Virus record (IMG/VR): IMGVR_UViG_3300033994_000677
Span: 1-28,516 of that record
DNA length: 28,516 nt
DNA from: a virus
Reading direction: 5' to 3' (one strand)
Numbering within the stretch: position 1 is the stretch's first letter; each line of letters begins with the position of its first letter. The translations under genes and the position numbers were made by a program. The notes beneath the pieces were generated by a model. The model worked only from the letters and a program-made list of their open reading frames with translations, made no database searches and was not told where the DNA came from. This document shows positions 7,384 through 28,516 of this stretch, one piece after another.

Positions 7384-7839
7384 TCATTTCCCTTTCGCGG
7401 CTCTCATGTTGCTTATCAAAGTTAAGCCATACGACCCGCGTTCTTCGAGGTAATAAATGGCTGCCTTTAAAATTTCTACAGAATCTTTTGCCAAGCCTAA
7501 AACAGAGTTGCAAGGCAAACACAAAATACCACGGAACTCACCTGTAACATGATTGTGGTCAATCGCATAACCCCTTTTTCTATTTTCATAAACCATTAAG
7601 TCGGGCAATTCTTTTTTACAAATTGAACAACATCCATTTTGTTCGTCCCAAGCTTTTGAAAATTCGGAGTGAGTTATCCCATATTTATATTTTAAATGTT
7701 GCTCAAGTCTTTTTTTTGGAGTTCTGCTGTTCCAAGATTTTTTTTGTTTTTGTTTTTGACAGTCTATGCAGCAATATTGCCCTTTCCAAAAATCAGCAAT
7801 TTGTTTTTCCTCGGAACAAACGGGACAAAACTTTTTCAT
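7384..7839 (-). CDS. HNH endonuclease of the recombination endonuclease VII type
   Basis: 151 residues. The catalytic core is visible: C71-x2-C74, then IDHNHVTGEFRG (D94, H95, N96, H97), then C107-x2-C110-N111, the beta-beta-alpha-metal nuclease with zinc knuckle of T4 endonuclease VII and related homing enzymes. An extra N-terminal pair C5-x2-C8 and C24-x2-C27 may bind a second zinc. The gene is visibly more A/T-rich (runs of T on the plus strand at 7707-7757) than its neighbours, a sign of recent entry. It begins inside the stop of the preceding gene (ATGA) and has no intron structure around it, so a free-standing homing endonuclease is most likely. Its last residues NMRAAKGK look like the end of the neighbouring small family. 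Confidence 0.88.
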   Translation of the reverse strand: MKKFCPVCSEEKQIADFWKGQYCCIDCQKQKQKKSWNSRTPKKRLEQHLKYKYGITHSEFSKAWDEQNGCCSICKKELPDLMVYENRKRGYAIDHNHVTGEFRGILCLPCNSVLGLAKDSVEILKAAIYYLEERGSYGLTLISNMRAAKGK

Positions 7840-8692: not shown

Positions 8693-9180
8693 GTTTGCCT
8701 CACAATACTCATCATGTAGAAATCAGCCTTATCTGTTCCATAGGCTTTTAAGATAGCTTCTTGCTTAAATCCAATAGCATTCGCCCATTTAACCGCTGCT
8801 TCGTGGTCGCACCTTACTGTAATCTGTTGCCGGTGTAAACCGTAGGATATCGCGCATATATCTATAAATGCTCTGCCGCCACGGGTCATGAATATAGGGT
8901 AGGCGCGTAGACGTTCATCTGGGATGAACCACATCTCGGCAACGCCCGGCCAAAGTGGCACCATACCGAACACGCCGACAGGTTGACCGTAGATCATGAC
9001 GGTTGTGGCCTCCCCCATGTTGGCTTGAGCGGTCACCAGTTGCTCACGAGAAACGCTATCCCCAATACAAAGGATGTCTTTGTTGTTAGTATTTATGTAA
9101 CTAACATGGTCTGGGGCGTAGGGCATAAAAATCGCCCCATTGGGGCGACGGACTTGTTCGTTTAAGTCGAAGGCAATCAT
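8689..9180 (-). CDS. T7 gp13-like protein with GNAT-like fold
   Basis: 163 residues. The composition and order fit the phage gp13 family (DUF2833), which in T7 is needed for assembly of the internal core and looks like a GNAT acetyltransferase domain. Visible elements are IYGQPVGVFGMVPLWPGVAE (about 83-102), AEMWFIPDER, and the C-terminal helix EAAVKWANAIGFKQEAILK, the usual last helix and strand of a GNAT fold. No clear acetyl-CoA loop (R/QxxGxG/A) is seen, so it is probably not an active transferase. It is coupled to the terminase gene by ATGA. Confidence 0.75.
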   Translation of the reverse strand: MIAFDLNEQVRRPNGAIFMPYAPDHVSYINTNNKDILCIGDSVSREQLVTAQANMGEATTVMIYGQPVGVFGMVPLWPGVAEMWFIPDERLRAYPIFMTRGGRAFIDICAISYGLHRQQITVRCDHEAAVKWANAIGFKQEAILKAYGTDKADFYMMSIVRQT

Positions 9181-10733
9181 GCGAAGACATCGAAGTCGCT
9201 GTTAGCGATGGTTTGTGCGGTGAATGTTCCTGTGGGCAGGTGGGAATTCTTGGTCATTCTGCGGTGTTCGCCGCCACCTAGTAGTAGATACCCGAATGCG
9301 TCGCCAACGTGGGAGTGTTCATTCTTGTTGGGTGCGTCCCGGAAGCGTTCTTGCCCTGCGCCAACTGAGATTCGCTTGAAATGGTAGCCACCGGCTAGGG
9401 ATTTCCTAAGAAGTTTGCAGGATTTGTCCACACGCAGGCCGGGTTTACCGCCGATTAGGCGTTGCATGGGTGCGGCTGCGGCTTCTCGACGTACTTTAAA
9501 GTCGTTACTGGGGGTAGGTTGGGCGCGTAAACCCAGTGTTCGCAGGTGATCGAAGGCGGTGACTTCGTAAATAGCGTCACGTTGCATACCGGCGGGGTCG
9601 CCCCACACTAATACTTGGGCTTTTGGGTATCTGGCGTTCAGTTCCCCTAGTAATTGCTGGCCGAAACGCTCAAGGCCCATGTCGAAGGTGACGATTTCGT
9701 GCAGGATATTCCATGTACCTGCGCCTGTTTTCTGTCCGATGACGGCGGCTGGGGTCAAGCCGAAGTCAAGGCCAACGTGGATGGGCAGGCTGGAGTCGTA
9801 ATCCAAGTCGGCTGACATCATATTGTCGTCGTACTCAGGCCAGACGGGTCGGCCTTCCTGCACATAAGTGTATTTACCTTCGGCGTAACAGCGAATCCAG
9901 TCTAGGTTTTTTCCGAGGAGCATTTGCTGGTAGTAGCCTGCTGGTAGATTGCCGATGTTTTCAGCTTTGCTATTCTTTTTCCACCACCTTCCTGCACTAT
10001 AGATGCAATCGTTAGCTTCAGGATTTTCTGGAAGTTCTGCAACATCTGCTTCTTCGACTCCACCGGGTTGTCTGAAGAACTCCCATTTGAAGGCCCCACT
10101 CATTTTCTCCTTTTCTGCCAGTCTGAACCACCAATGGTCGTCATCCATTGGGTTGGTATCCATGATGATGCCGTGCCAACTTGCCCCACCATCACGTTTA
10201 GTCGGGTATCGTCCGACTCGGTGTGTCAGTCCATCGATGACTGCTTTGGGTAGTTCCCGTGCTTCGTTGACCCATGCACCGGTCAACTCCAACGACAGCA
10301 GCTTTCTGACATCCTTTGGCTGATCCAGTGCAAGGAAGATGACTTCGCAATCGATTCCAGCGGCACCTTCTCTCGCAGGCAGTCGGATGTGGTGGGTAAT
10401 CGGTGGTGTCCATAGCAGTGGCCCGAAAGTATTTTCTGGGAACAGGTCAAGCCATGTCTTAATGGTCGTCGTCTTCAGCATTGGGTAGCTGTTTCGGACA
10501 ATCGCAAAGCGGCTGTACTTAATGCCGTCAATCGGAGAAGGCTTTTGCTGCACGGCCTTCATCATGATCTCAGCGCAGCAAGCGTATGACTTGCCGGAGC
10601 CTACTGGCCCCATGATGCCGCGAACGAAAGCGTTAGACCGCAGGAATTTCCACGCCATTGGGCTGGTGGAAAAGTCTAAGTTCAGCCCGGTTACGGGCAT
10701 CTCTTTGGTACCTGCTTCTTTAGTTTTGCTCAC
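9177..10733 (-). CDS. terL: Terminase large subunit
   Basis: 518 residues. The ATPase half has Walker A GPVGSGKS (42-49), a Walker B-like strand LTGAWVNEARE (150-160, catalytic Glu157) and the coupling motif MDTNP (191-195). The nuclease half has three acidic sites: GLDFG (Asp323), WGDPAG (Asp379) and HVGDAFGY (Asp478), matching the RNase H-type fold that cuts concatemers. The enzyme powers DNA packaging through the portal. The start is GTG at 10733, inside the end of the small subunit gene (overlap 14 bases). It is the clearest marker of the minus-strand packaging operon. Confidence 0.95.
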   Translation of the reverse strand: MSKTKEAGTKEMPVTGLNLDFSTSPMAWKFLRSNAFVRGIMGPVGSGKSYACCAEIMMKAVQQKPSPIDGIKYSRFAIVRNSYPMLKTTTIKTWLDLFPENTFGPLLWTPPITHHIRLPAREGAAGIDCEVIFLALDQPKDVRKLLSLELTGAWVNEARELPKAVIDGLTHRVGRYPTKRDGGASWHGIIMDTNPMDDDHWWFRLAEKEKMSGAFKWEFFRQPGGVEEADVAELPENPEANDCIYSAGRWWKKNSKAENIGNLPAGYYQQMLLGKNLDWIRCYAEGKYTYVQEGRPVWPEYDDNMMSADLDYDSSLPIHVGLDFGLTPAAVIGQKTGAGTWNILHEIVTFDMGLERFGQQLLGELNARYPKAQVLVWGDPAGMQRDAIYEVTAFDHLRTLGLRAQPTPSNDFKVRREAAAAPMQRLIGGKPGLRVDKSCKLLRKSLAGGYHFKRISVGAGQERFRDAPNKNEHSHVGDAFGYLLLGGGEHRRMTKNSHLPTGTFTAQTIANSDFDVFA

Positions 10734-11163
10734 GGACTTCCTCTGCGTCGATGATCTCAGGGGCTTTGACGTTGATACCGATCACGCTCGGTTTATCGGA
10801 GTCTTCAACGGTATCTAGTAAGCCAGAGGCTTTAGCCAAGATGCGTAGTACACCCACTTTGTCGTACAGTTCGATGTCTAGTGTGCGTGTGCAGCCGCCT
10901 TCTTTGTCGTAGCGTTCGTTGACCTTGATGGACTTGATGGCTTGCTGGGCGTGTTCAGGGATGTCTTTGCTGGCTTTTACCTTAATGTTGCCGGTTTCAT
11001 CCCACTCCATGATGTCGGTCAACTTGGTATTGGCGATGGTTAGCAGGGCATAGGCCACTGCTTCTCTGTTTTTAGCGATAGTGGTGGAGCCGCCTAATCG
11101 TTCTTGGATTCTGCGAACGCCGCCCCAGTTCTTAATCGATGGTATTTGTTTGCTTACAGACAT
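10720..11163 (-). CDS. terS: Terminase small subunit-like protein
   Basis: 147 residues, directly upstream of and overlapping the large terminase gene. The C-terminal half has the pattern of the phage small terminase family: DIMEWDETGNIKVKASKDIP (about 50-69), then AIKSIKVNERYDKEGG, then IELYDKVGVLRILAKASGLL. The N-terminal half is short and its helix-turn-helix is less obvious (WGGVRRIQERLGGSTTIAKN), so the DNA-recognition part may be reduced or diverged. It should bind the packaging site and stimulate the large subunit. Confidence 0.78.
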   Translation of the reverse strand: MSVSKQIPSIKNWGGVRRIQERLGGSTTIAKNREAVAYALLTIANTKLTDIMEWDETGNIKVKASKDIPEHAQQAIKSIKVNERYDKEGGCTRTLDIELYDKVGVLRILAKASGLLDTVEDSDKPSVIGINVKAPEIIDAEEVREQN

Positions 11164-11165
11164 TG

Positions 11166-11579
11166 TTATCTTTTCAAAAGTTCCATTCGCAAAAGATTCA
11201 CAAACAAATTTTGTTGTGCAGTCGGCACTCCGCTACTAGGATCATCTGACAAAATCCTTGCGGCAATTGTTGCTTTCCTTTCGTCTTCGCTTGCGTTTTT
11301 ATATGTGGTTGTGTCAAGAAACGCTTTTTGCTGATTTGTTAATTCAAAGTCCGGCTTAAACTCTGGCTTCCGCATAATAATTCTGCTGGCCTCATTTACT
11401 GCCACGGACTGATATTGTTCTGGTTTGAGATTTGAATATGGGTTCAAAATGACTTTGTTGTCTTCCGTTGCCATTCCGGCCACATTTGCGTTTTTCTTAA
11501 AGTATTCAAGCTCTCCGGCATAGGGCTTTCTCATTTCTATGCCTTTAGGCAAACGGATAAAGTTAAAGTCTTTGTCCAT
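11166..11579 (-). CDS. Conserved hypothetical protein before the terminase genes
   Basis: 137 residues, soluble, mixed charge. It contains RKPYAGELEYFKKNANVAGM (about 17-36), then ILNPYSNLKPEQ and NEASRIIMR, a pattern I recall from proteins encoded next to terminase genes in several phage and prophage groups, without a known function. The start ATG 11579 follows an AAGAGGA ribosome site. The stop is 3 bases before the small terminase start, so the three genes form one unit. Confidence 0.65.
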   Translation of the reverse strand: MDKDFNFIRLPKGIEMRKPYAGELEYFKKNANVAGMATEDNKVILNPYSNLKPEQYQSVAVNEASRIIMRKPEFKPDFELTNQQKAFLDTTTYKNASEDERKATIAARILSDDPSSGVPTAQQNLFVNLLRMELLKR

Positions 11580-11609
11580 AATTTCCTCTTAAATATCATG
11601 CGTGTTAGC

Positions 11610-11625
11610 CCTCGTCTTTCCGAGG
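11610..11625 (-). other. Hairpin in the leader of the terminase unit
   Basis: A 5-bp stem CCTCG/CGAGG with a 6-base loop lies about 30 bases before the ATG at 11579. A T-rich stretch on the minus strand (11683-11699) lies further upstream, between this leader and the cysteine-rich peptide gene, but no clean terminator stem precedes it. No convincing -35/-10 pair was found here. Confidence 0.3.
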
Positions 11626-11730
11626 TGTCCGTGTAGTCTCACCAGTATAGGGGCCGGTTCCACACTGCCGCTGTTAGCAGGGAAAAACAAACAAAAAAAC
11701 CTGCGCCACCTGCGGCTGGGCTAAACCCTG

Positions 11731-11877
11731 CTAGTAGCAGGATGTATTACAACTTGCTCCATAGCAACAGGTGGTACAAGTAACGCACCGGCCAGCATCG
11801 CAGTAAGTGTTATAGGTGCAGGTCGCGTAGACCAGAGGGGCTGTAATTGCCAGCCAGAGTGCGAACAGGTATTTCAT
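11731..11877 (-). CDS. Secreted cysteine-rich peptide, copy 1
   Basis: A 48-codon gene from ATG 11877 to TAG 11731-11733. Residues 1-18 (MKYLFALWLAITAPLVYA) form a good Sec signal peptide: Lys2, hydrophobic core and a V-x-A cleavage site. The predicted mature part of 30 residues holds eight cysteines (full-length positions 20, 26, 31, 34, 37, 38, 43, 47), so it would fold through disulphides in the periplasm. The ribosome site AAGGAG lies 5 bases before the ATG. The tandem neighbour at 11962-12108 has the same length and identical cysteine positions. I know no family with this framework. Possible roles are envelope modification, superinfection exclusion or lysis control, but nothing in the sequence decides. 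Confidence 0.8.
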   Translation of the reverse strand: MKYLFALWLAITAPLVYATCTYNTYCDAGRCVTCTTCCYGASCNTSCY

Positions 11878-11961
11878 ATGGCTCCTTTCGGATTATCGGG
11901 TGGGGTACTCACTGTAACCCTTGACGACCTACAATTGATCGACACAGCTTTCCCCCGTATT

Positions 11962-12108
11962 TCAGAAACAGCTTTTCATACAGGATGACTCATAACAGCA
12001 GATTGAGCAACTGACGCACTTCTCTAGCGTACAGTAGTGTCGCCAAAAGCACTTCTCTAAAGTATCTGGCGGTGGCAGGCTTAGTGATATTGCTAACAGG
12101 TAGGTCAT
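11962..12108 (-). CDS. Cysteine-rich peptide, copy 2
   Basis: A 48-codon gene from ATG 12108 to TGA 11962-11964, with ribosome site AGGGGAG. All eight cysteines are at the same positions as in copy 1 (20, 26, 31, 34, 37, 38, 43, 47), and CCY, Ser42 and the aromatic last residue are shared, yet most other residues differ. This is strong evidence that both are real and under selection for the cysteine framework. The N-terminus MTYLLAISLSLPPPDTLE is a poor signal peptide: no positive charge, a short hydrophobic part and no A-x-A site. Copy 2 may therefore stay in the cytoplasm, where CxxC pairs could bind zinc, or use a non-standard export signal. Confidence 0.75.
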   Translation of the reverse strand: MTYLLAISLSLPPPDTLEKCFWRHYCTLEKCVSCSICCYESSCMKSCF

Positions 12109-12214
12109 GTGGCTCCCCTTGGGGTTATAGGATGGGTACTCGCTCCATTACTGAACTTCTGCCGCGTGGGGGCATATGCCGAACAGTAAAATCCGCTTTC
12201 CCCCTGTCAATATA

Positions 12215-12511
12215 TCAGAATGGGATTTCCTCATCCAGCGTGTCTTTTCTATCGCCGGGGGCATACCCATTGCCCTTATCTATACTGTGCTGGTTTATTG
12301 TCGGCTGTGCTGGGACCATCTTACCTAGAGACACATTAAAAAACGTATCCCCAGCTTTTGTCTTCTTTTCCCATGCTGACAGGTAAAACTCCTGCCCATT
12401 CAACTTCAATTTACCCGACCAGTCCGGGCTATCCTCATTCTTCTTTTTCTTGTTTAAAAACAGATTCCCACGGTTATCTTTTAACTCGTACGGAGTCACG
12501 TAATTAGTCAT
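12215..12511 (-). CDS. Small ssDNA-binding-like protein with SSB-type acidic tail
   Basis: 98 residues from ATG 12511, chosen because GGAGAG lies 5 bases upstream; an ATG 36 bases earlier has no ribosome site. The core DWSGKLKLNGQEFYLSAWEK, then KAGDTFFNVSLGKM, is a short beta-strand pattern common in phage OB-like or DUF736-like proteins. The last residues, LDEEIPF, closely match the acidic C-terminal tip (DDDIPF) by which bacterial SSB recruits partner proteins. It probably coats single-stranded DNA or mimics the SSB tail during phage replication. It is divergent from the HNH gene on the other strand. Confidence 0.6.
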   Translation of the reverse strand: MTNYVTPYELKDNRGNLFLNKKKKNEDSPDWSGKLKLNGQEFYLSAWEKKTKAGDTFFNVSLGKMVPAQPTINQHSIDKGNGYAPGDRKDTLDEEIPF

Positions 12512-12530
12512 ATAGCTCTCCAAAATATTG

Positions 12531-12558
12531 TTGCCGACAGTTGGCAACTGAGTATAAT
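12531..12558 (+). promoter_or_regulatory. Plus-strand promoter for the leader RNA and HNH gene
   Basis: -35 TTGCCG (12531-12536), 16-base spacer, consensus -10 TATAAT (12553-12558); predicted start near 12565. The -35 region lies in an inverted repeat GTTGCC-N7-GGCAAC (12530-12548), a plausible operator for the phage Cro-like or ribbon-helix-helix protein. The minus strand shows TATACT over the same place (12551-12556), which could serve the divergent SSB-like gene, though I see no minus-strand -35 box. Confidence 0.6.
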
Positions 12559-12565
12559 CTTAATC

Positions 12566-12667
12566 GTCTGTTTAGCGCCAGACTGAAAGCTTATTGATAA
12601 GGCCTTGCCTCCGAAAACTCCATCGGGGGGCGCTAACAAGGTCTTTTCAATGGGCTTTCCATTATGA
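12566..12667 (+). ncRNA. Predicted pseudoknotted leader RNA upstream of the HNH gene
   Basis: The RNA would begin with hairpin H1: stem GTCTG/CAGAC (12566-12570 with 12579-12583) and loop TTTAGCGC. A second element has stem P2 GGCCTTG/CAAGGTC (12601-12607 with 12637-12643, one G-T wobble) and, stacked on it, P3 CCTCCGA/TCGGGGG (12608-12614 with 12623-12629, one wobble). Between P3 and P2 a 7-base strand GCGCTAA (12630-12636) is exactly complementary to TTAGCGC in the H1 loop (12572-12578), giving a loop-strand pseudoknot. The 3' arm of P2 contains AAGG, the only ribosome-site-like motif before a 5-codon ORF (ATG 12650, stop TGA 12665-12667) that overlaps the HNH start as ATGA. A last hairpin AATGG/CCATT (12649-12663) abuts the HNH ATG. 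Hand-folded; no match to a known riboswitch or ribozyme was recognised. Confidence 0.5.
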
Positions 12668-13146
12668 AAACTCCCACCATCGGCCCGGTTCGTCTTTCGA
12701 TGAGCTACGGCAAGCCTTCCATCTACAAAGACGCTGCCAAGAAAAAAAAGAAGCGTCAAGAAAAGGCTAAGAAGACACTTGCCAAACTAGCCAGTCAATC
12801 CCCTGAAATTCAAAAGCTCATATCTCAACGAGCTACTGCCATTTCAAAAAAGCAATCAAAGAAGGCAAAGCCTGTCAATTTAAGCAATGCGCCTATATAC
12901 CAAAAAGGCATGGGTTCTGACTTCTATATCACTAAAGAATGGAGACAGCTTAGGTACTCCATCTTTGTAAAATATGGCAAAATCTGTATGTGCTGTGGCT
13001 CGAAGGATGGCTACTTACACGTAGACCACATCAAGCCACGTTCCAAGTTCCCAGAGCTGGAGCTTGAACCAAGTAATCTGCAAGTCTTGTGTGAGGCTTG
13101 CAACGTAGGTAAATCCAATCTGGATCAAACCGATTGGAGAAGGTAG
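12664..13146 (+). CDS. HNH endonuclease
   Basis: 160 residues. The first 75 are Lys-rich and helical (KKKKKRQEKAKK at about 26-37), probably DNA-contacting. The nuclease domain follows: EWRQLRYSIFVKYG, C108-x2-C111, VDHIKPRS (Asp121, His122), ELEPSNLQVLCEACN with Asn138 and C143-x2-C146-N147, all the elements of a McrA-type HNH fold with zinc pairs. There is no ribosome site directly before the ATG; translation may be coupled to the tiny upstream ORF. It is the only gene of its short plus-strand unit, flanked by structured non-coding sequence, which suggests a mobile homing-type cassette. A host-DNA-degrading or packaging-related nuclease is the alternative. Confidence 0.85.
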   Translation: MKTPTIGPVRLSMSYGKPSIYKDAAKKKKKRQEKAKKTLAKLASQSPEIQKLISQRATAISKKQSKKAKPVNLSNAPIYQKGMGSDFYITKEWRQLRYSIFVKYGKICMCCGSKDGYLHVDHIKPRSKFPELELEPSNLQVLCEACNVGKSNLDQTDWRR

Positions 13147-19303: not shown

Positions 19304-19723
19304 ATGCGCCCCATCTATGAGACACAGGCAGACTTAAAGCGAGAGAAAGAAGTACAAGAAGCTTTGTACCTCATGTGGGAAGTGGACTTTCACAAGCTGC
19401 CTCGCGCCTACCATGTAGACTGGATGCTGACAAAGAAAGGACAAGCCAAAGGATTTGCCGAACTCAAGTGCCGAAACAATCCTCGCAGTCAGTATCCTAC
19501 CTTGATGCTATCAATGCACAAGTGGATGCACGGCAAGGCAATGGCACAAGAGATCGGGGGAAAGTTCATTGTCATCGTCCGGTGGAGCGATGGCATCTTC
19601 TACCACAAGCAAGGCTGGTGCGATGTCACCTACGGCGTAGGCGGCAGGAAAGATAGAGGGGACAGTCAGGATATAGAACCAGTGGTCCATATCCCGACTG
19701 ACTACTTCAGACGCGCTACTTAG
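19304..19723 (+). CDS. Putative PD-(D/E)xK nuclease-like protein
   Basis: 139 residues, ribosome site AAGGA 6 bases before ATG 19304. HVDWMLTKKGQAKGFAELKC (37-56) provides Asp39 and Glu53-x-Lys55 with the spacing of a PD-(D/E)xK nuclease, and helix QEALYLMWEV before it fits. The later helix (LMLSMHKWMHGKAMA) and strands (GKFIVIVRW) complete an alpha-beta core. It is last in the early operon and meets the lysis genes tail to tail, overlapping by 8 bases. Activity is inferred from residues only. Confidence 0.6.
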   Translation: MRPIYETQADLKREKEVQEALYLMWEVDFHKLPRAYHVDWMLTKKGQAKGFAELKCRNNPRSQYPTLMLSMHKWMHGKAMAQEIGGKFIVIVRWSDGIFYHKQGWCDVTYGVGGRKDRGDSQDIEPVVHIPTDYFRRAT

Positions 19724-20180
19724 GCCTCAAGGCTTCGTACTGTTTGACGCAGGTGTCGAGGGCTGCTTGGAGTCTTGCGGCATCGGCACTGTACCCTGCA
19801 AGAAAGATTGCATCTCGGCTTGCCAGTTCCGCTCCACTCGCTCCACCGCAAGATTGGGTGGCACCGGACACGGCACTTGCCGAGGTGGTGGGACGCTCGG
19901 GGCGCTGGCGCAAGCTGTTAATAAGCTTGTCAGACCGAGCGTTAATATCCTTGATTTGTTCATAAGACTCTTTCCTTAACTGGTCAGCTTGTGCCTGTAA
20001 TGCCTGCTCCTTCTCACGCGCAGCAGCTTGTGCCTTCGCATATTCCTCTGCCTGCTTGGCACGTTCCTGATCCCACGCAGACTGGACCTGTGCCTTACCG
20101 TGCGCCGTACCTTTGACGTAGCCACCAGCGCCTGCAAGGGCGACAGCGATAACGGCACCGGCCACAAAATAGGGATTCAT
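19716..20180 (-). CDS. Rz: i-spanin (Rz-like inner membrane subunit)
   Basis: 154 residues. One N-terminal membrane anchor (FVAGAVIAVALAGAGGYV, about 5-22) is followed by a long periplasmic coiled coil (about 35-90: QERAKQAEEYAKAQAAAREK and on), then a small C-terminal region with two cysteines. This is the Rz architecture, which spans the periplasm and joins the o-spanin to fuse the inner and outer membranes at the end of lysis. The o-spanin gene is nested in another frame. ATG overlaps the upstream stop (ATGA). Confidence 0.85.
   Translation of the reverse strand: MNPYFVAGAVIAVALAGAGGYVKGTAHGKAQVQSAWDQERAKQAEEYAKAQAAAREKEQALQAQADQLRKESYEQIKDINARSDKLINSLRQRPERPTTSASAVSGATQSCGGASGAELASRDAIFLAGYSADAARLQAALDTCVKQYEALRPK
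19727..19963 (-). CDS. Rz1: o-spanin lipoprotein (Rz1-like), nested in the Rz gene
   Basis: 78 residues, fully inside the i-spanin gene in another frame. Signal MNKSRILTLGLTSLL with lipobox LTAC (Cys18) marks an outer membrane lipoprotein; the mature part starts with a proline-rich stretch (SAPSVPPPRQVPCPVPPN), typical of Rz1. Full nesting is the classic lambda arrangement. It shows that the host has an outer membrane. Confidence 0.85.
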   Translation of the reverse strand: MNKSRILTLGLTSLLTACASAPSVPPPRQVPCPVPPNLAVERVERNWQAEMQSFLQGTVPMPQDSKQPSTPASNSTKP

Positions 20181-20362
20181 TTGGGCGGCACCTTAGTACC
20201 ATCAAGCTTCTTATGAATCTTTACCTCGCGGCAGACCTGTACTTCCTTACCCTTCTTATCCTTCTCAGCGTGGCAAACTTTCTTTGTCTCGCCAGCATGG
20301 ATTTGGAAAGCCAAGAACAAGCTGGCAATAACTGTGACAGCCATACGCGCATAGATCAGCAT
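20177..20362 (-). CDS. Small exported protein in the lysis region
   Basis: 61 residues. MLIYARMAVTVIASLFLAFQ IHA is a likely signal peptide (cleavage after residue 23), leaving a 38-residue Lys-rich mature chain with two cysteines (KVCHAEKDKKGKEVQVCREV), probably one disulphide, and the end KLDGTKVPPK. I recall similar short proteins in phage lysis regions with unknown role. It overlaps both neighbours by 1-4 bases. Confidence 0.6.
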   Translation of the reverse strand: MLIYARMAVTVIASLFLAFQIHAGETKKVCHAEKDKKGKEVQVCREVKIHKKLDGTKVPPK

Positions 20363-20805
20363 TATGAAATCTCCGGGTGAGGTGGTTGAACAGGTGCTGC
20401 CTTACCGCCATAGCCTGTAGCTACAGGTGTGGCAGAGATTGGATCAATCGTCGGTTCCATACGAACAGGAGCCTGTGTAGGTGAAGGTGGTGGCGACTTA
20501 GGTGGAGTAGGATCAGCCCAGTCACTCGCCTTGCTTACGCCGGGTGGTGGGTCAATCAACTTAGCTACGCCGTCCTTACCTTTGATGGCAAGTAATGTTC
20601 CCAATGCGCCCAATATGTACTTTGACATATCGGAAAGCAGTAGAAAAAATTGTTTGTCAGCAGGTGCCATACCAACCATAGGCTGAGTCACGAAGACGAC
20701 CGAGTACATCGACAGCATCGTCATGGTCAGAACAACAAGACAGAACGTCGAGCCAATGATAAGCTTTAGCAGAGCATCCATCTGCTCAGGGGCTAGGTTT
20801 TTCAT
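20362..20805 (-). CDS. Two-span membrane protein, holin candidate
   Basis: 147 residues. Two hydrophobic segments, LIIGSTFCLVVLTMTMLSMY (about 15-34) and SKYILGALGTLLAI (about 61-74), followed by a cytoplasmic or periplasmic tail of about 70 residues rich in proline (DPTPPKSPPPSPTQAPV). Location between spanins and endolysin and the two-span topology suit a class II-type holin, though the long Pro-rich tail is unusual and GPE-type roles cannot be read from sequence. Confidence 0.55.
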   Translation of the reverse strand: MKNLAPEQMDALLKLIIGSTFCLVVLTMTMLSMYSVVFVTQPMVGMAPADKQFFLLLSDMSKYILGALGTLLAIKGKDGVAKLIDPPPGVSKASDWADPTPPKSPPPSPTQAPVRMEPTIDPISATPVATGYGGKAAPVQPPHPEIS

Positions 20806-20986
20806 CTTTCATATCCTCCTGTTTCAGCAGTTGGTCAGGGCAGGTGCCGGTGATAGCGCAGTCTGGACGTTGGCATTCCTGTTTCTTCCAGTTAGCCTTA
20901 TCCATACAAGGGTACCTGAAGCGGTCCTCACACCCACTAAGCCAAGCGAGTGCCAGAAGTATTAAAGCTATTGAGCGCAATTTCAT
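20786..20986 (-). CDS. Small lipoprotein in the lysis region
   Basis: 66 residues with a lipoprotein signal MKLRSIALILLALAWLSGC (lipobox LSGC, Cys19). The mature chain has four more cysteines in a pattern I recall from phage lysis cassettes (PCMDKANWKKQECQRPDC, then TGTCPDQLL). It overlaps the endolysin gene by 50 bases and the next gene by 20. Being a lipoprotein with paired cysteines, it probably sits at the outer membrane; its part in lysis is unknown. Confidence 0.68.
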   Translation of the reverse strand: MKLRSIALILLALAWLSGCEDRFRYPCMDKANWKKQECQRPDCAITGTCPDQLLKQEDMKDEKPSP

Positions 20987-21593
20987 AGTGATGTTCCCTG
21001 TCTTCCAGTCCTATGTAGCCGCCATTGATTGCCTTGGTTAATCCCTTAAAGTCATTCGCATCAACGAAACGATTGAGTTTGTTTTCACTCCAGTACCAGC
21101 AGGCACTCTGCGCTGCTCCCTCGAAGGTCTGCAAATATTCAGCCGCTTCTTCAGGTGTAATCTCAAGCGAAGCAGCAAACCAAAAGTAATTATTTTTCCC
21201 GGTGAGTTGCAAAATTCCTCGGCCACGGAATTTGAACCCATCTCCGCTGGCCTCATCGCCATTGCCCATGCGGTTAGCGTAAACCTTGTTCGCTATCTTC
21301 TCAGGGTTACGGGCATAGAGTTTGGCTGTTGCCAAGTCAGGGAAATACTTGTCGAATATCCTGACCAGACCTTCTGCACTGTAGTTCAGGTTCTCTGTCA
21401 GGAATACATAGCCGCCTGATTCATGGCTAGTCTGGGCAAGGAAAGCAGCGATGCGCTTCGGTGTATTGATCTCGTACTCTTCGAGCAAAGACTTGCCACC
21501 GAACTCTGACTGCGGACTGAACATTGCGTCGTACCACTGGTCAGCGTACTTGCTCTTAGGAATAAACTTTCTGAATGCGTTGCGATCAATCAT
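20937..21593 (-). CDS. GH19-type endolysin (chitinase-like lysozyme)
   Basis: 218 residues, the usual size of phage GH19 enzymes. FLAQTSHESGGYVFLTENLN (51-70) carries the catalytic Glu58 and a second acid, Glu67; further landmarks are YANRMGNGDEASGDGFKFRG and RGILQLTGKNNY, both classic for the family. It cuts the glycan chains of peptidoglycan. There is no signal peptide, so it needs a holin. It is coupled to the membrane protein gene upstream (ATGA). Confidence 0.92.
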   Translation of the reverse strand: MIDRNAFRKFIPKSKYADQWYDAMFSPQSEFGGKSLLEEYEINTPKRIAAFLAQTSHESGGYVFLTENLNYSAEGLVRIFDKYFPDLATAKLYARNPEKIANKVYANRMGNGDEASGDGFKFRGRGILQLTGKNNYFWFAASLEITPEEAAEYLQTFEGAAQSACWYWSENKLNRFVDANDFKGLTKAINGGYIGLEDREHHYEIALNSFNTSGTRLA

Positions 21594-26891: not shown

Positions 26892-28516
26892 TTAGTCCTC
26901 AAGCCTTAAACGGGTTGCAAGATCGGGGTCCTTCATCTTCAGCTTCTCCAGTGCCATCCTGTCAAAGACAGAAGAGATTGCCTGCAAAGAATCAGCCTTT
27001 TGCTCTTTGTCCATCAGGGCGTACTCTGGTGAACGAATCTTATTGACCATCATCGAATACATTGTGGCACCGGGATCGTACCCATCCCCAGTTGCGCTCT
27101 TCTCTCCCGGACCCCGGCCAGCAGCATCAATCTCCATTGCCGTTTTCAGAAGAAAATTATATTGCTCGGCGTTAAAAATAACACCACCTTTTTTCTTTTC
27201 TGGCATTTTTATGCCAGCCTCCAGCCGCTGCAATTCCTTGCCAACTTGGCTATATTGCTGGCTGTAGGTTTTCCACGGGGTGAATAGCTCATATGCCGAG
27301 CCATTGCCCTGTGGGACAGTCTCAGCCCAGCGGTTAAGCTTTGGTGGCATATCCTTAGAGAAGAATGGATTACGCGCCTTGGCCTTCTGTAGCGCCTCGT
27401 AGAAGCCTCTGAGCGGGGCTGGTAGACGGGTAGGGTCTTCGTTGAACATCCCCTTGGCTGGCAGCATAGTGCTGGAGCCATCCGGCATGATCCAACGCTC
27501 TGTGGCCGCAAAGCCAGACGAGACAGTTGGGAAAACATTCAGGCCAGCAGACACAGCTTTCTCTGATGCAACTTCGACAACCCTAGCCAGCTTGTCCTTC
27601 ATCTCACGCTGCTGCGGTCCAAAGGCTTTAGAGATGTCAGCAATGCCCTCGACCATTGGCAGGCTAGTCATGAACTCAGCCACACTCAAAGTCATCGCCA
27701 GAGCCAAGCCTTCCAGCACCGAGTTGTCTTCTTCGTGCTGGGCGTAGTAGGCAAAGTCGGCAGCCATCGCAATGACACCAGCCTCCGGTCCTAGCTGGTT
27801 GTAGCTGTAGCCAGTCCAGTTGCCATCAGCATCCTTGAAGTTGATGGTGTACGGCATGATGCCCATTGCTTGCAAATTCTGTTGAGCTGCAAGATCACTA
27901 GGGCCAGCACCAGTAATGACCATGTTGTCGCCAAAGCCGCCCATAGCGCCCCAAGCAATCATGCCCATTGTGGACGATCCAAGCGCAACCTTGGACAAAG
28001 CCAGATCAGCTTCAGGACCACCCGCTTTCAATGTCTGGTAAAACTTAGGGCTTACCAATTGTGCCGGGCTACGCTCTAGTGTTTGCAGAATGACATTACT
28101 TGGTGTCTTGTAGAACGGGACGATCAGCTTGACAGCCGGATGGTTGAAGAATGGTTCCATCTTCGCAAGGAAGTCAGGCAGATCGCCTTGGAATACCATC
28201 TCCTTTGCACCTTCACGGACATCAGTAATGATGTTCTCCGGCGGGTTCTGCATTATCTCTGCATACCGCTTTGAGGCAGCAGCACGAGCAAACTCTTTAG
28301 TCTGTTTCTGCTCTAGCAGGTCATCGTACAGCCTCATGCTGTCGCGCTTTGCCGCCTTACGCAGCAAGTGCTGGGAAGCCACCGACTTAAATACCTCGTC
28401 CTCTGTCACCAAGAATCTGCCCGGCAACCTATAGTAGTTACCCAATACATCGACAGCACGGCCACCAAGACTGTTTTCAGGGATGTCAAAGTTCTTTGCA
28501 GTGATTGCCTTACGGG
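26892..28516 (-). CDS. Large polyvalent-type virion protein, C-terminal part (partial)
   Basis: The frame is open to the right edge, so at least 540 residues are C-terminal to a larger protein. SLGGRAVDVLGNYYRLPGRF followed by LVTEDEVFKSVASQHLLRKA resembles the LPD38 domain at the end of huge polyvalent phage proteins, several thousand residues long, that are carried in the virion and injected. Two hydrophobic stretches (STMGMIAWGAMGGFG and VIAMAADFAYYA) could meet the membrane during DNA ejection. The in-frame TTG at 28445 is not the true start. It lies upstream of the fibre gene with 11 bases between. Confidence 0.8.
   Translation of the reverse strand, partial: RKAITAKNFDIPENSLGGRAVDVLGNYYRLPGRFLVTEDEVFKSVASQHLLRKAAKRDSMRLYDDLLEQKQTKEFARAAASKRYAEIMQNPPENIITDVREGAKEMVFQGDLPDFLAKMEPFFNHPAVKLIVPFYKTPSNVILQTLERSPAQLVSPKFYQTLKAGGPEADLALSKVALGSSTMGMIAWGAMGGFGDNMVITGAGPSDLAAQQNLQAMGIMPYTINFKDADGNWTGYSYNQLGPEAGVIAMAADFAYYAQHEEDNSVLEGLALAMTLSVAEFMTSLPMVEGIADISKAFGPQQREMKDKLARVVEVASEKAVSAGLNVFPTVSSGFAATERWIMPDGSSTMLPAKGMFNEDPTRLPAPLRGFYEALQKAKARNPFFSKDMPPKLNRWAETVPQGNGSAYELFTPWKTYSQQYSQVGKELQRLEAGIKMPEKKKGGVIFNAEQYNFLLKTAMEIDAAGRGPGEKSATGDGYDPGATMYSMMVNKIRSPEYALMDKEQKADSLQAISSVFDRMALEKLKMKDPDLATRLRLED

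Follow-up and report, generated by a model that had tools for sequence, protein, structure and literature searches.

Two adjacent 48-codon genes on the minus strand of an environmental phage genome raise the question of what their cysteine-rich products are, and where and how these would act in an infected cell. The window, i.e., the whole stretch of DNA analysed (28,516 nucleotides), is a 28.5-kb IMG/VR virus record that is incomplete at both ends. Its closest relative among isolated phages, Methylophilales phage MEP301, is collinear with it and shares 77% identity in the terminase large subunit (TerL), 71% in the connector and 67% in the capsid. The contig ends lie inside the genes for tail tubular protein B (1–1571) and an internal virion protein (26892–28445), and the structural region consequently lacks several kb relative to MEP301.

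Copy 1 (11731–11877, minus strand) encodes a 48-residue precursor with an ATG start and is a typical member of the eight-cysteine family described below. Copy 2 (11962–12108, minus strand), also with 48 residues and an ATG start, is a divergent duplicate with 8/8 cysteines kept and no recognisable signal peptidase site. Each gene has a Shine-Dalgarno-like motif four bases 5′ of its ATG, which is AAAGGAG in the leader of copy 1 (11878–11910, minus strand) and AAGGGGAG in that of copy 2 (12109–12142, minus strand). The copy 1 leader recurs before copy 2, the common sequence being GAGTACCC...AAGG(G)GAGCCAYATG, and the aligned upstream sequence thus confirms the ribosome sites and shared leader described in an earlier note on this DNA. 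Cysteines are found at positions 20, 26, 31, 34, 37, 38, 43 and 47 of both proteins, which are 40% identical overall (19/48 residues in common); the chance that all eight cysteines would be among the common residues is 1.4e-4. The exact framework matches only copies 1 and 2 in the window and is absent from all 100 dinucleotide-preserving shuffles of it, which bears out the tandem arrangement of minus-strand ORFs with the same eight cysteine positions.

A search with copies 1 and 2 recovered 128 relatives from IMG/VR, and the eight cysteines were kept in all those read. Relatives lacking both C26 and C31 were also found, including in the environmental phage records MW202462 and MW202544. A search with this six-cysteine form yielded at least 120 stretches, and almost every one of them contains a real precursor gene. 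With a broader profile, at least 513 of the first 600 pattern stretches of IMG/VR were found to encode relatives. The cysteine spacing therefore has homologues, comprising about 100 or more phage stretches with the eight-cysteine form and hundreds more with the six-cysteine form. The family is large and has no name, with at least 500 stretches in IMG/VR, where contigs are redundant and mostly fragments. As the earlier note had suspected, it corresponds to no named phage family: no model in Pfam, PHROGs, NCBIfam or PADLOC covers it, and a text search of the literature found no paper describing it. Grouping the terminases of 30 long contigs plus that of the window gives ten lineages at 40% identity; at 70%, the two cysteine forms co-occur inside one terminase lineage. 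Nearly all relatives are single-copy. No tyrosine integrase was found in 36 long contigs, which are possibly incomplete. Plasmids yielded no relatives in a tblastn search with the low-complexity filter. A single relative, on the contig of a metagenome-assembled genome (MAG), was found among bacterial genome contigs with the eight-cysteine query, and a profile search of 399 genomes of that MAG's phylum, which also covered the six-cysteine form, returned the same contig only. A bacterial origin was rejected on the basis of this lone occurrence.

Although hundreds of environmental phages from diverse lineages carry the gene, it is missed by standard annotation because it is short, rich in cysteine and threonine, subject to low-complexity masking and sometimes overlapped by a gene call on the wrong strand. 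The last of these explains its absence from the annotation of MW202462, in which a gene annotated as UOF77143.1 overlaps the real peptide gene in antisense (MW202462.1, 33818–33958; contig L206, 755–895).

The gene 5′ of the pair, for a protein resembling single-stranded-DNA-binding protein (SSB; 12215–12547, minus strand), matches PHROG 18154 (E 1.3e-11), and a relative of it is the immediate upstream same-strand neighbour of the peptide gene in 78 instances, mostly of the eight-cysteine form (duplicates counted). With duplicates likewise counted, the eight-cysteine form is most often found directly after the SSB-like gene and has ERF or RecT-like genes upstream, and the six-cysteine form often has a DUF1376 replication protein gene after it and sometimes a Cro/YdaS-like regulator upstream. 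On the other side of the pair are the minus-strand genes for the terminase small subunit (TerS; 10720–11163) and TerL (9177–10733), the latter being the basis for the phage lineages. Within the lineage of the window, the slot between SSB and TerS is empty in MEP301, where the two genes abut and there is no peptide gene; it holds a six-cysteine gene in contig L403 (gene order SSB, peptide, TerS, TerL) and the eight-cysteine copies in the window. The lysis genes (endolysin and Rz; 19716–21593) are located about 8 kb from the pair. Promoter and terminator scans were near chance and found none framing the pair. The peptides are therefore treated as operon members, and a moron design with its own promoter and terminator was rejected.

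Two further observations concern the same region. The 3′ flank of copy 1 (11640–11735) contains AGCAGGG...CCCTGCT and a T-rich stretch that are strongly conserved among sister phages. An RNA element was considered here and rejected, as the conserved stretch has no Rfam match and an ordinary folding energy (z −0.58); the flank, which is located just before the terminase genes, is possibly a packaging site or a terminator. A 137-aa gene (11166–11579) between the peptides and TerS is missing from that location in MEP301 and in L340-type contigs, and has a weak, sub-threshold match to the Pfam B domain (PF02216).

Residues 1–18 of copy 1 (MKYLFALWLAITAPLVYA; 11824–11877, minus strand) form a Sec signal peptide with a predicted signal peptidase I cut after VYA, leaving a mature peptide of 30 amino acids and eight cysteines (11734–11823, minus strand). 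Signal peptides were assigned by rules, not by SignalP. By these rules, an AxA signal-peptidase site is found in 124/124 distinct members other than copy 2, with the cleavage motif [V/A/T/S]-[Y/W]-A or similar lying 0–5 residues before the first cysteine. K or R is present among the first five residues after Met in 121 of 125 members. Copy 2 has no basic residue before its hydrophobic run, has PPP-D and LEK at the cleavage region, and reaches a 15-residue hydropathy maximum of 0.89 vs. 1.96 in copy 1. The contrast drawn in the earlier note, with a Sec signal in copy 1 and none in copy 2, is hence upheld on a rule basis. A strict lipobox precedes the first cysteine in only one of the 124 members; the residue before that cysteine is S, A, T, N, Q or V, and the gap between AxA and cysteine is 0, 1, 2 or 5 residues. 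Mature peptides have approximately 30 residues, of which roughly one quarter are cysteine and one quarter threonine, and their charge is mostly neutral to +1.

C26 and C31 are jointly present or jointly absent in every member found. No single-cysteine variant at these positions was recovered in three targeted scans of the collection or among the 309 members collected, and the pattern candidates for seven-cysteine intermediates were rejected as unrelated cysteine-rich frames. The tree contains a single split between the two forms, for which reason many independent gains of C26/C31 were rejected and the contrast between forms counts as one covariation observation. Close eight-cysteine pairs have a pN/pS of 0.08 in the mature part, and close six-cysteine pairs differ there by 54 synonymous and 0 nonsynonymous changes. 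Judging from these substitutions, the copy-1-type peptide is conserved, functional and under strong purifying selection. Selection on the framework, as proposed in the earlier note, is borne out by this strong constraint among copy-1 relatives, while the comparison of copies 1 and 2 with each other, suggested in the same note, reveals weak constraint only (pN ~0.44, pS ~0.72).

AlphaFold2 applied to 82 family sequences predicts a three-stranded antiparallel sheet with strands at mature residues 2–9, 12–21 and 24–29, joined by two-residue turns (mean pLDDT 89.9, pTM 0.40). Six-cysteine sequences alone gave identical strands (pLDDT 92.3, pTM 0.44); pTM is low in both of these 30-residue models. 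Through the predicted turns, antiparallel registers require paired residues to sum to 21 and 45, and the mature cysteines at 2, 8, 13, 16, 19, 20, 25 and 29 pair completely on them as 2–19, 8–13, 16–29 and 20–25 (2+19=8+13=21; 16+29=20+25=45). The predicted disulfides are accordingly C20–C37, C26–C31, C34–C47 and C38–C43 in precursor numbering. Eight random positions would pair fully on registers 21/45 with p=4e-4; since 19% of random sets would do so on some register pair, the argument for this pairing needs the AlphaFold model. Cysteines 8 and 13, which face each other, are precursor C26 and C31, the two absent from the six-cysteine form, and the six-cysteine model was built without sight of this pair. 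Length changes in the mature part are located at both predicted turns. Thr36, Gly40, Thr45 and Tyr/Phe39 are kept in nearly all members, and His23 is conserved in most six-cysteine members and replaced by Asn in most eight-cysteine members. Mutual information among other residue pairs revealed no clear ladder, with the exception of one pair at sum 21. The PDB yielded no sequence-profile match and no Foldseek match below E 1, in what is a weak test at 30 residues. Considered together, the signal rules and the cross-strand fit of the cysteines support the secreted, disulfide-rich nature ascribed to copy 1 in the earlier note, and it is very probable that the peptide is both exported and disulfide-folded.

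The inhibitor cystine knot of conotoxin framework VI/VII has the pairing 1–4, 2–5, 3–6 and characteristic loop ranges. The six-cysteine form has the same C-C-CC-C-C order, but its loops of 13, 2, 0, 4 and 3 residues are outside the usual ranges, and the strand registers of the model imply the pairing 1–3, 2–6, 4–5 instead. Threonines at mature positions 3/18/27 and 4/6/15/17 align across the predicted strands, and in the six-cysteine form the model has a flat Thr/Asn array on one sheet face, recalling glycan- or ice-binding surfaces. Tenebrio antifreeze proteins provide the analogy for a Thr-x-Thr ice-binding face. Ice binding was rejected, as position 22 is Thr in the six-cysteine form but Tyr in the eight-cysteine form, and three strands are few.

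What might such a peptide do? Copy 1 would be a phage-encoded precursor of a 30-residue mini-protein, which would be exported through Sec to the periplasm, cleaved by signal peptidase I after VYA, and oxidised by host Dsb enzymes to a three-stranded antiparallel β-meander held together by four disulfides across its strands (three in the six-cysteine sister form). Being encoded together with SSB, recombination and replication genes, it would be made with them, and thus probably before lysis starts. In the periplasm it could bind a conserved target, namely an incoming tail lysozyme, the receptor plug or the injection apparatus, and thereby exclude superinfecting phages. Action of copy 1 on the envelope, as the earlier note had supposed, fits the evidence. 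Superinfection exclusion at the envelope is tentatively regarded as the peptide's most likely job, ahead of the rivals discussed below, and the whole explanation, of an exported and oxidised periplasmic effector that most likely excludes superinfection, is given a probability of approximately 0.4.

Precedents are found in well-studied phages. T4 Spackle (Sp, gp61.3) is a small periplasmic protein with a cleaved Sec signal, which inhibits the incoming tail lysozyme and makes infected cells resistant to later infection; its 97-residue precursor has a 22-residue signal and one cysteine pair that is dispensable for binding (PMC7650644). The lipoproteins Llp of T5 and Cor of T1 and phi80 are small, act at the periplasmic face and block the receptor in infected cells, and Llp is lipidated and encoded adjoining the receptor-binding protein gene (PMC9586334). 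The present peptide has the export signal of such exclusion proteins (AxA in 124/124, by rules) but differs from each of them. Compared with Spackle, it has 30 mature residues and six or eight cysteines, and no PHROG or Pfam link to it. Unlike Llp and Cor, it has no lipobox and its neighbours are SSB, ERF/RecT, DUF1376 and TerS genes; by these features it falls outside the Llp/Cor lipoproteins and would at most act in the manner of exported phage exclusion proteins. These differences also weigh against exclusion itself, as the known proteins either exceed the peptide in size (75 mature residues in Spackle) or are lipidated (Llp), the Llp gene adjoins that of the receptor-binding protein while the peptide gene is not close to tail genes, and diversification might be expected of receptor blockers, whereas the peptide surface is conserved over many lineages. 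A more specific version, which is doubtful, would have a phage-specific β-meander family with the pairing 1–3, 2–6, 4–5 plus an optional fourth staple that comes or goes as a unit, spread among many unrelated phages at a few slots of the replication region and neutralising one conserved periplasmic target. If true, it would represent a small-protein architecture without clear match in the PDB, and phage effectors acting on the envelope would gain a new class.

The conserved surface also bears on a second reading, in which the exported, disulfide-stapled peptide targets a host envelope process for host takeover rather than phage exclusion. Candidate targets are cell-wall synthesis, a periplasmic protease or quality-control factor, or an envelope stress sensor. 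A single surface kept across at least ten terminase lineages is what a conserved host target would suit, and the gene lies in the replication region; against this, the peptide has no homology to any known host-takeover protein, and takeover is considered somewhat unlikely. Release at lysis, with action outside the cell as a microcin- or defensin-like antagonist, a signal or a means of progeny protection, is less probable again. The very stable architecture predicted for a secreted peptide of ~30 residues would suit that role, but the peptide has a net charge of 0 or +1 and is neither cationic nor amphipathic, which sets it apart from most membrane-active peptides. No immunity or exporter gene was noticed adjoining it, and there is no outer-membrane export signal.

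Copy 2 requires separate treatment. It is confined to the species group of the window, with 13 loci in a targeted search, all encoding a 100% identical protein. In six sister contigs (L340, L341, L342, L344, L345 and L347), ~150 bp carrying copy 1 are missing (11742–11893, minus strand; nearly all of copy 1 and its ribosome site) and copy 2 is retained. The two copies are therefore not an obligate unit. Retention of 8/8 cysteines suggests that copy 2 was under selection for its framework for much of its history. In this diverged duplicate export would have been lost, and the gene may now either drift or be moving to a role in the cytoplasm. An improbable alternative is a separate function for copy 2 as a reduced peptide of zinc type in the cytoplasm, maintained while copy 1 can be lost. 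Maintenance of the ORF and eight cysteines despite ~60% amino-acid divergence (p 1.4e-4) and its sole presence in the six sister contigs speak for such a role; on the other hand, its very long branch in the tree and the copy 1/copy 2 pN of 0.44 suggest relaxed selection, and its uniformity is explained by recent spread. Only two synonymous sites vary among the copy 2 loci, and non-coding DNA around them is conserved to the same degree. Since the SSB gene upstream is more diverged, this uniformity is best attributed to recent recombination.

A metal-binding peptide or pair, whether metallothionein-like or cuproprotein-like, is very unlikely. The high cysteine content and the His23 of most six-cysteine members would be in its favour, but this His is Asn in most eight-cysteine members, predicted export leads into an oxidising compartment, two of the eight cysteines come and go as a hairpin pair, and no NCBIfam metal family was above cutoff. 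The suggestion in the earlier note that the two copies bind metal as a pair fails on further grounds, since nearly all relatives are single-copy, copy 1 is deleted from several contigs of the species group in which copy 2 stays, and the cysteine positions suit cross-strand disulfide registers better than a metal site.

Small exported periplasmic phage proteins of the T4 RI type exist, and a similar regulator of lysis timing acting on the holin was considered; it is highly improbable, as the gene lies among SSB, replication and terminase genes, ~8 kb from endolysin and Rz, and the neighbours of both cysteine forms are replication genes. Slightly less credible still is a lipoprotein. This reading follows the UniProt name of the best structural match in BFVD, A0A6J5M8Q5 (‘Lipoprotein’, uncultured Caudovirales phage; TM 0.90), and the first cysteine is indeed near the cut. 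With 49 aa and 55% identity to the peptide over 29 residues, A0A6J5M8Q5 is almost certainly a family member. Its label is probably wrong, given the single strict lipobox in 124 members, and likely stems from automatic naming; the varied residue before the first cysteine, the variable gap from AxA and the predicted pairing of C20 with C37 are also at odds with lipidation. Spurious ORFs, an idea encouraged by the short length of the genes, their omission by annotators and the wrong-strand call in MW202462, can be dismissed in view of hundreds of homologues, purifying selection and a conserved operon position, the substitution pattern alone ruling it out for copy 1.

If confirmed, the peptide would be a compact phage effector that is exported and whose predicted fold is cheaply testable, and it would offer an entry point to envelope modification by the phages of small aquatic bacteria. 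The occurrence at one locus in closely related phages of six-cysteine, eight-cysteine, tandem, copy-2-only and empty states provides a clean natural experiment.

Between the window and contigs L340–L347, several hundred bases of coding and non-coding DNA (window 11590–12300) are nearly identical, and the SSB gene upstream is more diverged. To judge by this pattern, the block was recently recombined, and one breakpoint of the tract lies in SSB. An HNH endonuclease gene is located on the opposite strand just beyond SSB (12664–13146), and an endonuclease VII-like gene within the structural block (7384–7839). Both are possible free-standing homing endonucleases, which could drive local recombination.
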